DNA from: an uncultured Paracoccaceae bacterium
GTDB taxonomy: Bacteria > Pseudomonadota > Alphaproteobacteria > Rhodobacterales > Rhodobacteraceae
Direction: 5' to 3'
Assembly (NCBI GenBank): GCA_913041145.1
Contig: CAJWHE010000004.1
Coordinates: 1-64,000, forward strand
DNA: 64,000 bases
Shown here one piece after another: positions 7,486-16,191 of this stretch. Position numbers and translations under genes: made by a program. How positions within the stretch are numbered: the stretch's first letter is position 1; each line of letters begins with the position of its first letter. Below the pieces are notes generated by a model that was not told the origin of the DNA, made no database searches, and worked only from the letters and a program-made list of their open reading frames with translations.

Positions 7486-8007
7486 TTAATCCATTTTTTC
7501 TTTAATATCTTTATTGGAACCCGAGCTTAATAAAACTAGAGGATCAAAATCATTGCCTTGCTCTGTTAACCAGTTCTCAATTGACTTAGCTTGCTCATAA
7601 GATGATTCAGGTGACCAAATTTGGAATGTGTCTCCAGTTGCAGAAAAATGTGCTTCATTAGTAATTCCAACTTTCTCTCTTAAGCGCAGAGGTATCACCA
7701 ATCGTCCAGATTCATCAGGTTGAGTTGGAAGAGATTGACCATTGAAAATATGCTCTAAGGCACGACGTTCCTTTGACCCTCGCGGTAAATGAGAGATTTT
7801 TGAGTCAACTTCATTGATAGCATTTTGAGTGTACACTTCTAAATATTTTTGCGTTGTACCTCCATATACTATCACAGCATTTGGATTTAAACCTTCCGTC
7901 CAATCCGGATCACCAGATTCAAGAACTCGTCGAAAGAGTACTGGAATCGATACGCGACCTTTCCCATCGACCTTATGTATCCCTTCGCCTCTAAATCTAT
8001 CTACCAA
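7486..8007 (-). CDS. mraZ: Transcriptional regulator / division protein MraZ
   Basis: First gene of the dcw cluster. MraZ is a ring-forming DNA-binding protein of the AbrB/SpoVT fold which, in studied bacteria, represses its own operon. The 173-residue product has two MraZ repeats, with the DGKGRVSIP (about 14-22) and ESGRLVIP (about 99-106) signatures. The likely start is a TTG at 8007, chosen because GTAGATAGATTTAGAGG after it matches the family N-terminus and AGGAG lies 10 bases upstream. The stop is three bases before rsmH. It is preceded by an unusually long structured leader. Confidence 0.93.
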   Translation of the reverse strand: MVDRFRGEGIHKVDGKGRVSIPVLFRRVLESGDPDWTEGLNPNAVIVYGGTTQKYLEVYTQNAINEVDSKISHLPRGSKERRALEHIFNGQSLPTQPDESGRLVIPLRLREKVGITNEAHFSATGDTFQIWSPESSYEQAKSIENWLTEQGNDFDPLVLLSSGSNKDIKEKMD

Positions 8008-8033
8008 ATCTAGTAAGCTCCTTTACCCTATAC

Positions 8034-8078
8034 TCTAAAGAAACAGCGGTTGGGTCACTGCCATAACCCAATCCGCTG
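8034..8078 (-). terminator. Intrinsic terminator/attenuator between the leader RNA and mraZ
   Basis: A hairpin with arms 8044-8055 and 8066-8078 pairs over 12 bp with one bulged base; on the minus strand it is followed by TTTCTTTAG. It stands between the dcw promoter and the mraZ ribosome site, so transcription of the whole operon must read through it. It could set the ratio of free leader RNA to operon mRNA. Confidence 0.75.
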
Positions 8079-8238
8079 AATTCCTCTTTTGGAGGTGTTT
8101 GACCCGCACCACCTGGGGGGATGTCTGCTTGCGCAGGTTCAAACTAGTTCACGATAAAATGGGAGCCTGTATGAAACCTTTATGGTCGCCTATTGGGGTT
8201 CTTAGTTGCCCCTATTTTATTTAACCCTCGTTTATCGT
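8037..8238 (-). ncRNA. UpsM-like small RNA in the mraZ (dcw) 5' leader
   Basis: About 200 nt of clearly GC-richer, non-coding sequence between the predicted dcw promoter and mraZ, on the operon strand. In minus orientation it starts just after a TTGATT-16-TATATT promoter, contains several short helices (for example GTTTGA with TCAAAC arms near 8097-8147) and ends in a strong hairpin followed by TTTCTTT, about 25 bases before the mraZ start. This layout (operon TSS, roughly 200 nt, intrinsic terminator, then mraZ) matches UpsM, the abundant sRNA described from the dcw leader of Rhodobacter sphaeroides. The sequence was not aligned to UpsM; the call rests on position, length and architecture. 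Confidence 0.65.
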
Positions 8239-8245
8239 GGGTTAA
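8221..8245. promoter_or_regulatory. Perfect 7-bp dyad over the dcw promoter -10/start region
   Basis: TTAACCC (8221-8227) and GGGTTAA (8239-8245) form a perfect inverted repeat separated by 11 bases. It touches the predicted -10 box and spans the predicted start site, so it is better explained as an operator than as an RNA hairpin. The binding protein is unknown. Confidence 0.4.
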
Positions 8246-8272
8246 ATATACACGGGATGTGACGGAAATCAA
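8245..8272 (-). promoter_or_regulatory. Predicted sigma-70 promoter of the dcw operon and leader RNA
   Basis: On the minus strand, TTGATT (8267-8272) and TATATT (8245-8250) are separated by 16 bases. The start site would lie near 8238, at the edge of the GC-rich leader. No better pair is evident between mrp and mraZ. Confidence 0.6.
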
Positions 8273-8281
8273 TACCACTTT

Positions 8282-8298
8282 ATGGGAATCTATCCCAT
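8282..8298. promoter_or_regulatory. Inverted repeat upstream of the dcw -35 box
   Basis: ATGGGA (8282-8287) and TCCCAT (8293-8298) form a 6-bp dyad with a 5-base spacer, about 10 bases upstream of the predicted -35. It contains TGGGA, the core reported for MraZ boxes, but in inverted rather than the usual direct arrangement, so an MraZ role is speculative. Confidence 0.3.
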
Positions 8299-8504
8299 TT
8301 TAAGTAAAAAAAATTTTTATTAACTAATATATCTACATATTGTGCCTTCATATATAAACATATCTATATTTAGTAATATAAATTTCTTAAATGATTACTA
8401 AGATTAGAAAAAAGTTGGAAATAAGACAAAAACTTAAAATTTATTAAAAAAACCTTCGTGATTCGTTTATATAATTTAAAACTTTAATTAACTTAACTAT
8501 TAAG
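8299..8504. other. AT-rich spacer between mrp and the dcw promoter, no gene seen
   Basis: Very AT-rich with runs of A and T. I see no credible open reading frame, tRNA or strong hairpin. It probably holds the mrp 3' end and upstream promoter DNA for the dcw operon. Confidence 0.6.
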
Positions 8505-9587
8505 TTATTTTGAAATTACACTGTCAATAAGCTTCTGTGCGATCGAAGCATACGGCTCAGAAGTTGATCCATCACCATTAGCAACTGGCTTTCCAGCGTC
8601 TCCAGACAATCTAATTTCCAAATCTAAAGGAATTTCTCCCCAAAACGGTAACCCCATTTTAGATGCTTCTGCACGTACACCCCCATGCCCAAAAATTTCC
8701 GCCTCATGCCCGCACTTTGGACAAATATAATTGGACATGTTTTCTATTAACCCAAGCACTGGCACCTTAAGACCATTAAGCATATCAATAGCCTTTTTGG
8801 CATCTATCAATGACACATCTTGCGGTGTGGAAACTATGATTGCTCCACTAAGTTCTGCTTTTTGGCAAAGGCTAAGCTGAACATCCCCAGTTCCAGGAGG
8901 AAGATCAACTATTAGCACATCCAAATCCCCCCACTGAACCTGACCTAACATCTGCTGAAGAGCTCCCTGTAACATGGGCCCACGCCAAACTACCGCTTTA
9001 GAAGGGTCAACCATAAAACCAATAGACATTACAACAACTCCAAATGCCGATAAAGGAATAATAGTTTTTCCATCTGGGGAGTCTGGTCTTCCAGTCAACC
9101 CAAGCATTTTGGGTTGTGAAGGGCCATAAATATCCGCATCCAGTAAACCAACTCGCACACCTTTTTTTGCAAGAGAAACTGCTAGATTTACTGAAACAGT
9201 GGATTTTCCAACACCTCCTTTTCCAGAACCAACTGCTATAATGTGCCGTATACTATCTGGCTTCATGGATTCCACTCTTTGATCAGGATGTTTGCCAATT
9301 TTTAAATCTGGAGGTCGAGAATTCGAACTTGTCTCACTTACGTCTCGTTGGGATGTCAAAACTATAGAGGCCTTAGAGACACCATCAATTGCTTCTAAAA
9401 CCCTTTGGGTATGTTTAACGATAGGATTAAATAGCTCAGCTTCAGAGTTATCTATCTCAATCACAAAACGTACAACTCCATCTTTGATTTCTAAAGCTCG
9501 TATTAAATCTCTAGAAATTAAATTAGATCCTCCAGGAACCTCAATAGAAGATAAACAGTCCAAGACTTTATTTTGCAATGAATTCAT
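8505..9587 (-). CDS. mrp: Mrp/NBP35-family iron-sulfur cluster carrier ATPase
   Basis: Cytoplasmic P-loop ATPase that carries and delivers Fe-S clusters. The 360-residue product has an N-terminal MIP18/DUF59-type domain (about 1-85), a linker, then the ATPase domain with GSGKGGVGKST at 120-130. The cluster-binding CPKC motif is at 289-292. The domain order and length are those of bacterial Mrp (ApbC). It stands alone on the minus strand with about 120 bases upstream before a candidate sRNA on the other strand. Confidence 0.96.
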   Translation of the reverse strand: MNSLQNKVLDCLSSIEVPGGSNLISRDLIRALEIKDGVVRFVIEIDNSEAELFNPIVKHTQRVLEAIDGVSKASIVLTSQRDVSETSSNSRPPDLKIGKHPDQRVESMKPDSIRHIIAVGSGKGGVGKSTVSVNLAVSLAKKGVRVGLLDADIYGPSQPKMLGLTGRPDSPDGKTIIPLSAFGVVVMSIGFMVDPSKAVVWRGPMLQGALQQMLGQVQWGDLDVLIVDLPPGTGDVQLSLCQKAELSGAIIVSTPQDVSLIDAKKAIDMLNGLKVPVLGLIENMSNYICPKCGHEAEIFGHGGVRAEASKMGLPFWGEIPLDLEIRLSGDAGKPVANGDGSTSEPYASIAQKLIDSVISK

Positions 9588-15303: not shown

Positions 15304-16191
15304 TTAAATCATTCCTTTTTCTTCGGCCAACGCTCGCATTCGAGATTGTAGTTTTTCGAATGCACGAACTTCTAACTGACGAATTCTTTCTCGGCTAACT
15401 TTATAATGTAAACTTAACTCTTCCAGTGTTGAAATAGTTTCGGTCAATCGCCGTCTAGTGAGGATATCTTTTTCTCTATCATTCAAAATCTCCATGGCAG
15501 ACACCAGAAGCTCTCTTCTGCTATCAAACTCTTCCTTCTCTTCATATTCAGTAGCTTGATCAGCATTTTCATCTTCAAGCCAGTCTTGCCATTGAGTTGA
15601 ACCGTCACCGTCAACAGAAATAACTGCATTAAGTGACGCATCGACCCCAGACATTCTTCGGTTCATTGAGTCAACCTCAGTTTCTTTTACATTTAGTTCT
15701 GAGGCTATTCGTTTTCTATTCTCAGGTCGTAAATCTCCCTCTTCAAACGCTCCTATTCTATTTTTTGCCTTCCTTAGGTTGAAAAATAGTTTTTTCTGAG
15801 CACTTGTCGTACCTAATTTTACTAAACTCCAAGAACGTAAGACATATTCTTGAATTGAAGCACGAATCCACCACATGGCATATGTTGCAAGTCGAAAACC
15901 TTTATTTGGGTCAAATTTTTTCACCGCTTGCATAAGGCCAACATTAGCCTCAGAAATCACTTCAGACTGAGGCAATCCATAACCCCGGTAACCCATTGCT
16001 ATTTTTGCGGCCAGTCTTAAATGAGACGTCACCAACCGATGTGCAGCATCGGTATCTTCGTGATCAACCCAGCGCTTAGCCAGCATATACTCCTCCTCTG
16101 GCTCCAACATTGGGAACTTCCTTACCTGTTGAAGGTATCTACTTAAACCGCCATCAGGGGTTGGAGCGGGTAAATTCGAGTAGTTAGACAT
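15304..16191 (-). CDS. rpoH: Heat-shock sigma factor RpoH (sigma-32)
   Basis: Alternative sigma factor directing RNA polymerase to heat-shock and, in Rhodobacter relatives, photo-oxidative stress promoters. The 295-residue product contains region 2 (LRLAAKIAMGYRGYGLPQSEVISEANVG and MWWIRASIQEYVLRSWSLVK, with the RpoH-box QKKLFFNLRKAK just after) and region 4 with an SRERIRQLE helix-turn-helix. Length and motifs fit RpoH rather than RpoD. It lies downstream of rluD on the same strand with a 144-base gap that could hold its promoter. Confidence 0.98.
   Translation of the reverse strand: MSNYSNLPAPTPDGGLSRYLQQVRKFPMLEPEEEYMLAKRWVDHEDTDAAHRLVTSHLRLAAKIAMGYRGYGLPQSEVISEANVGLMQAVKKFDPNKGFRLATYAMWWIRASIQEYVLRSWSLVKLGTTSAQKKLFFNLRKAKNRIGAFEEGDLRPENRKRIASELNVKETEVDSMNRRMSGVDASLNAVISVDGDGSTQWQDWLEDENADQATEYEEKEEFDSRRELLVSAMEILNDREKDILTRRRLTETISTLEELSLHYKVSRERIRQLEVRAFEKLQSRMRALAEEKGMI

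Follow-up and report, generated by a model that had tools for sequence, protein, structure and literature searches.

We identified a UpsM-type 5' leader RNA of the dcw operon on the minus strand of the window (the whole 64,000-nucleotide stretch of DNA that was analyzed, from an uncultured Paracoccaceae bacterium) and, in the same genome, a candidate for its partner small RNA (sRNA), StsR. With high confidence, we read the locus as the UpsM leader of the dcw operon in a small, AT-rich Rhodobacteraceae genome, with StsR as a partner acting on the R1 domain of the leader. The leader itself belongs to the known UpsM kind, and the useful new part is the predicted family-wide pairing between StsR and UpsM; part of this pairing, and perhaps also its conservation, may already have been published. 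Within the literature surveyed, experiments on the UpsM-StsR circuit come from 1 species.

All of the elements listed in an earlier note on this DNA (a promoter, approximately 200 nt of GC-rich structured sequence, a hairpin, a T tract, and the mraZ ribosome site) were present and lie on the minus strand (Table 1); the key element absent from that note was the R1 motif with its complementary sRNA. An AT-rich spacer and the GC-rich structured stretch separate mraZ from the Mrp/ApbC-like gene upstream of the leader (8505-9587), and the genes identified downstream by Pfam were mraZ, rsmH, and ftsI, with a short ftsL-like open reading frame between rsmH and ftsI. GC content was 40-53% in the structured stretch (approximately 8060-8240) vs 14-18% in the adjacent spacer, and the leader fold was more stable than all 200 of 200 dinucleotide shuffles (z -3.5).

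Table 1. Coordinates of the features identified at the mraZ leader locus of the window
Feature	Position	Strand	Evidence
MraZ-box-like repeats TTCCC, TTTCC, ATCCC in 10-bp register, overlapping the promoter	8254..8288	-	Sequence; 121-leader comparison
Promoter TTGATT-16-TATATT; expected transcription start near 8237	8245..8272	-	Consensus scan, conservation; matches the Cereibacter 268-nt start
UpsM-type leader RNA, R1 to R4 and U tract	8036..8239	-	Covariance model (E 6.3e-24); fold
R1 closing stem, 5' strand CACGAUAAACGAGGG	8225..8239	-	Fold; strand-matching test
R1 inner hairpin AGGGGC...ACCCC	8195..8213	-	Leader alignment, fold
Near-invariant R1 motif AGGUUUCAUACAGGC, predicted StsR site	8165..8179	-	Alignment, motif counts, duplex scoring
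R1 closing stem, 3' strand CCCAUUUUAUCGUG, predicted RNase E region	8150..8163	-	Strand matching; homology to the inferred start of the Cereibacter 130-nt fragment
R2 hairpin, conserved loop AAGCAGACAUCCCCCCAGGUGG	8097..8144	-	Alignment, covariation
R3 short hairpin CCUC/GAGG	8083..8095	-	Fold, covariation
R4 terminator hairpin, 12-13 bp	8044..8078	-	Two-sided changes at 13/14 pairs
Short U tract 3' of R4 (TTTCTTT)	8036..8043	-	Sequence
mraZ ribosome site AAAGGAG, ten bases ahead of the TTG start	8018..8024	-	Sequence
mraZ, TTG start at 8007, first gene of the dcw cluster	7486..8007	-	Pfam PF02381

UpsM (RSs0682) is known as an abundant sRNA that arises by partial termination, binds Hfq, and is cut by RNase E under stress, in a system where mraZ has no promoter of its own beyond the leader. 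It derives from the 5' leader of dcw in Rhodobacter/Cereibacter sphaeroides, with published lengths of 268, 206, and 130 nt (PMC5089854). A contig scan gave named loci in Cereibacter johrii, Luteovulum azotoformans, and Cereibacter ovatus. In C. johrii, the expected start lies 268 nt upstream of the mraZ GTG, after TTGCGT-17-CATCCC; 206 nt from that start ends within the terminator T run, and an open reading frame spans the terminator, as published for UpsM. The published 130-nt fragment would start at ACCCGC^UUUCAUC, and the inferred RNase E cut in the Cereibacter leader lies directly 3' of the R1 motif. Since the published landmarks fit the C. johrii leader and our covariance model (19 leaders aligned, spanning the R1 motif to the terminator) fits that leader too, the window RNA is a UpsM orthologue. 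The UpsM-like character proposed in the earlier note thus stands on a family-wide model and a named Cereibacter leader, and the structural similarity to UpsM leaders comprises an R1-R4 structure ending in a terminator. The window leader shares with UpsM its site before mraZ on the same strand, a promoter at the homologous position, the R1-R4 order, the terminator, a length of approximately 200 nt, and membership of one continuous homologous series. In contrast, its R1 and R2 stems are AT-rich and of other sequence, its spacer to mraZ is shorter (a 5' UTR of approximately 230 nt, not 268), and the terminator-spanning short open reading frame of R. sphaeroides is not conserved. Read-through control of the dcw operon, at approximately 1 in 100, was shown experimentally only in R. 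sphaeroides (PMC5089854); by analogy, we infer that it would also apply to the division operon of the window organism.

The leader model matched 229 of 249 Rhodobacteraceae genomes (228 of 248 genera), almost always with a single match in each genome and with mraZ downstream in the loci checked for it. From a class-wide sample of 240 genomes, only the 3 members of the family matched; in the genomes sampled (the family set and these 240), the leader is confined to Rhodobacteraceae. A DNA search likewise reached relatives belonging to other genera, and the identical positions clustered in the R2 loop. Neither the leader nor the partner sRNA had an Rfam family at the gathering cut-off; weak matches to DapZ (8448-8512), BjrC1505, SorY, and HCV_SL588 fell below it and were judged to be chance.

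R1 has been called hardly conserved (PMC5089854). In our wider set of leaders, it consists of a closing stem, whose 2 strands change together, around the near-invariant AGGUUUCAUACAGGC. The strands read CGAUAAA/UUUAUCG in the window, GAUGAG/UUUCAUC in most leaders, and GCAGACGCGAU/AUCGCGUCUGC in G199. Own strand pairs had a mean of -19.4 kcal/mol vs -15.7 for permuted pairs, and none of 2,000 permutations had a mean below -16.6 kcal/mol, a test that is inflated by relatedness. Further, GGTTTCATACAGGC occurs in 2 copies in most genomes of the family and almost never outside it, and a reversed-pattern control was nearly empty. One copy lies in the dcw leader; the other is antisense to an sRNA of approximately 75 nt.

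This second copy is antisense to ACUGCUCGAUAGGUUUCUUGCCUGUAUGAAACCUGCCUCAAUAAC; a terminator and T run come directly after this sequence, and conserved CTTGG and TATAAAG-like boxes lie upstream of it. In the window's genome, the sRNA (approximately 75 nt, with terminator) lies at G000:C7:12323-12397 (L148:2323-2397), flanked by a solute-binding-protein-like gene and a TRAP-transporter-like gene, both named by eye. A model of the sRNA matched 243 of 249 family genomes (213 of the 215 good ones) and, weakly, 1 genome outside the family. The RNA is 74-77 nt long with the whole T run included, and approximately 40 nt of it are near-invariant across some 240 genera. Second StsR-like matches in G111 and G130, and the match in G322 outside the family, were weak and without the motif on inspection, and were rejected. 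StsR (RSs0827) of R. sphaeroides, whose transcription depends on RpoHI/RpoHII, is reported in PMC8307010, PMC8625941, and PMC11354728 as a 72-nt RNA under stress-sigma control that binds UpsM, opens a previously double-stranded region to RNase E and so triggers its cleavage, and lowers dcw mRNA. Matched to this published description, the partner sRNA is almost certainly StsR: the 2 share length (approximately 75 vs 72 nt), a terminator, complementarity to UpsM, and a CTTG-type promoter, and the Cereibacter-like genome G078 has a candidate StsR as well. The genomes differ in RpoH, of which the window's genome shows 1 (the RpoH-family sigma factor gene at 15304-16191 of the window, minus strand, its sole match above the family cut-off), whereas a Cereibacter-like genome shows 2 strong matches. 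A search with PF12973, towards the reported rpoE target of StsR, found no locus.

The predicted contact places the StsR loop GCCUGUAU opposite the complementary AUACAGGC in R1, where UCAUACA is mostly unpaired in the fold of the window leader. The StsR-leader duplex has 15 bp in the window's genome and 17-18 bp in most relatives, with a median exact complement of 17 nt among 121 leaders. A second contact pairs CUGCUCG at the StsR 5' end with CGAGCAG of the R2 loop (GAGCAG is present in 104 of 121 leaders); in the window's genome, it is formed by CUGCU with AGCAG, lengthened by GAACCU, and the order of both contacts is compatible with one antiparallel pairing. With folding inside each RNA left out of account, the duplex in the window's genome scored -43.4 kcal/mol, compared with an average of -26.2 and a best value of -41.8 for 1,000 shuffled leaders. 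In G130 (L061, L203), the leader (CUCCUA) and StsR (UUAGGA) have both changed, and the leader scored -44.7 with its own StsR vs -40.8 with the standard one; judged from these sequences, the double change is possibly compensatory, with pairing kept. G032, where both partners have changed and pairing is no better, was excluded from the support as intermolecular covariation. A pattern designed to match the variant StsR of G020 to the leader of that genome, TCAAACAGGC, was rejected for an excess of chance matches; the G020 leader ends at a contig edge.

The candidate StsR hardly varies, including in genomes whose leader motif has changed or is lacking (G011, G221, and G111), so other targets are needed to explain its conservation. 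Since StsR persists in G011 and G221, which have no such motif, it would be older or broader than its UpsM target. The mraZ leaders of these 2 genomes (L220 and L222) carry MraZ-box-like repeats and no R1 motif. Such retention, together with the R2 loop ACAUCCCCCC, which is likewise almost invariant and for which StsR is only a partial explanation, would suit a UpsM orthologue whose R1 motif is kept for a ligand pocket, an RNase E site, or Hfq or another protein, with the sRNA match being secondary. We consider this unlikely, given that most genomes of the family have a single further copy of the motif and that this copy is antisense to a small RNA, that the exact complement is of the length given above, and that 1 lineage appears compensated. 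Within the R2 loop, ACAUCCCCCCAGGUGG (window 8109-8124) is nearly invariant and unexplained by StsR pairing; being C-rich, the loop could bind trans targets at their G-rich ribosome sites. The terminator loop UGGCAG (104 of 121 leaders) is also complementary to CUGCC of StsR, an observation we note as a lead only.

Among 101 distinct leader sequences, 98.4% of pair cells were standard and 25 of 29 pairs had two-sided changes vs 6.9 in shuffles, in an alignment that was fitted to the covariance model and is thus biased towards structure; an unfitted alignment gave the same trend by most measures, with smaller numbers. The two-sided changes in the R4 stem (Table 1) were counted across the same 101 sequences. 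Leaders that have lost most of R2 (e.g., G036, G118, G084, and G150) retain UUUCAUACAGGC or a near variant, along with MraZ-box-like repeats and a terminator-like hairpin. An exchange of pairing between R2 and the terminator R4, put forward for R. sphaeroides on the basis of a constrained fold (PMC5089854), would make the leader a riboswitch or attenuator; this is very improbable, as the family consensus in the same paper has no R2-R4 exchange, and R2 of the window was unchanged when the 5' strand of R4 was forbidden from pairing.

The promoter consensus scan alone was not above chance (1 site vs 3.4 expected). The promoter is supported by conservation rather than by consensus score, since its position is the same in approximately 120 relatives and the -35 TTG is conserved. 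The consensus scan showed no promoter-like site between 8036 and the mraZ start, where a transcription start would have spoken against the reading in the earlier note, although such scans cannot exclude one. The terminator consensus scan was likewise not above chance, and the sole terminator it reported was a plus-strand hairpin; the T tract after R4 is short, as in relatives. The least likely reading of all, to which we give hardly any credence, is that the leader is a degenerate remnant in a reduced genome with mraZ transcribed from another promoter, as the short T tract and the chance-level promoter score might suggest, but a congener with 89% identity retains the motif, stems, and loops, the consensus scan showed no alternative promoter, and both RNA partners are retained in the window's genome.

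CCC boxes spaced 10, 20, or 30 bp apart (CCC-N7-CCC type) lie over the promoter in 80 of 121 leaders, compared with 3.0 on average and at most 10 in a shuffled control. Because the promoter is embedded in these MraZ-box-like repeats, autorepression of the operon by MraZ is probable. Immediately upstream of the direct repeats, window 8281-8299 reads ATGGGATAGATTCCCAT, in which MraZ-box-like words form an inverted pair. In E. coli, MraZ boxes have the form TGGGN. Those of its dcw promoter were described by Eraso et al. 2014, as cited in PMC8475190; the window resembles them in having direct repeats of 10-bp period upstream of mraZ and differs in that E. coli has a 38-nt 5' UTR without a leader RNA (PMC5089854).

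In the mechanism that best accounts for the covarying leader and its homology, for the partner sRNA gene, and for the complementarity of the two RNAs, transcription would start near 8237 with initiation sensitive to MraZ binding, and would by default terminate at R4, yielding an sRNA of approximately 200 nt, with rare read-through into mraZ and the division genes. The StsR loop would kiss its R1 complement and then extend to the 15-bp duplex, and the StsR 5' end would join R2 through the second contact. By analogy with R. sphaeroides, this pairing would open R1 and expose the AU-rich 3' strand of its stem to RNase E, whose cleavage would reduce the amounts of UpsM and of dcw mRNA when cells are stressed or in stationary phase.

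These results point to R1, not R2-R4, as the regulatory core. As far as conservation and complementarity indicate, StsR and UpsM together probably govern division throughout the family. On balance, we favor StsR-UpsM as an ancestral, Rhodobacteraceae-wide switch with R1 at its core, in which a near-frozen stress sRNA would clamp the R1 motif and R2 loop and cut the division operon, atop MraZ autorepression, and which would have been kept in reduced genomes with shrunken leaders. If the pairing holds family-wide, both RNAs would be annotatable by model, and a stress-to-division sRNA circuit would become testable by point mutation in marine roseobacters and reduced lineages.
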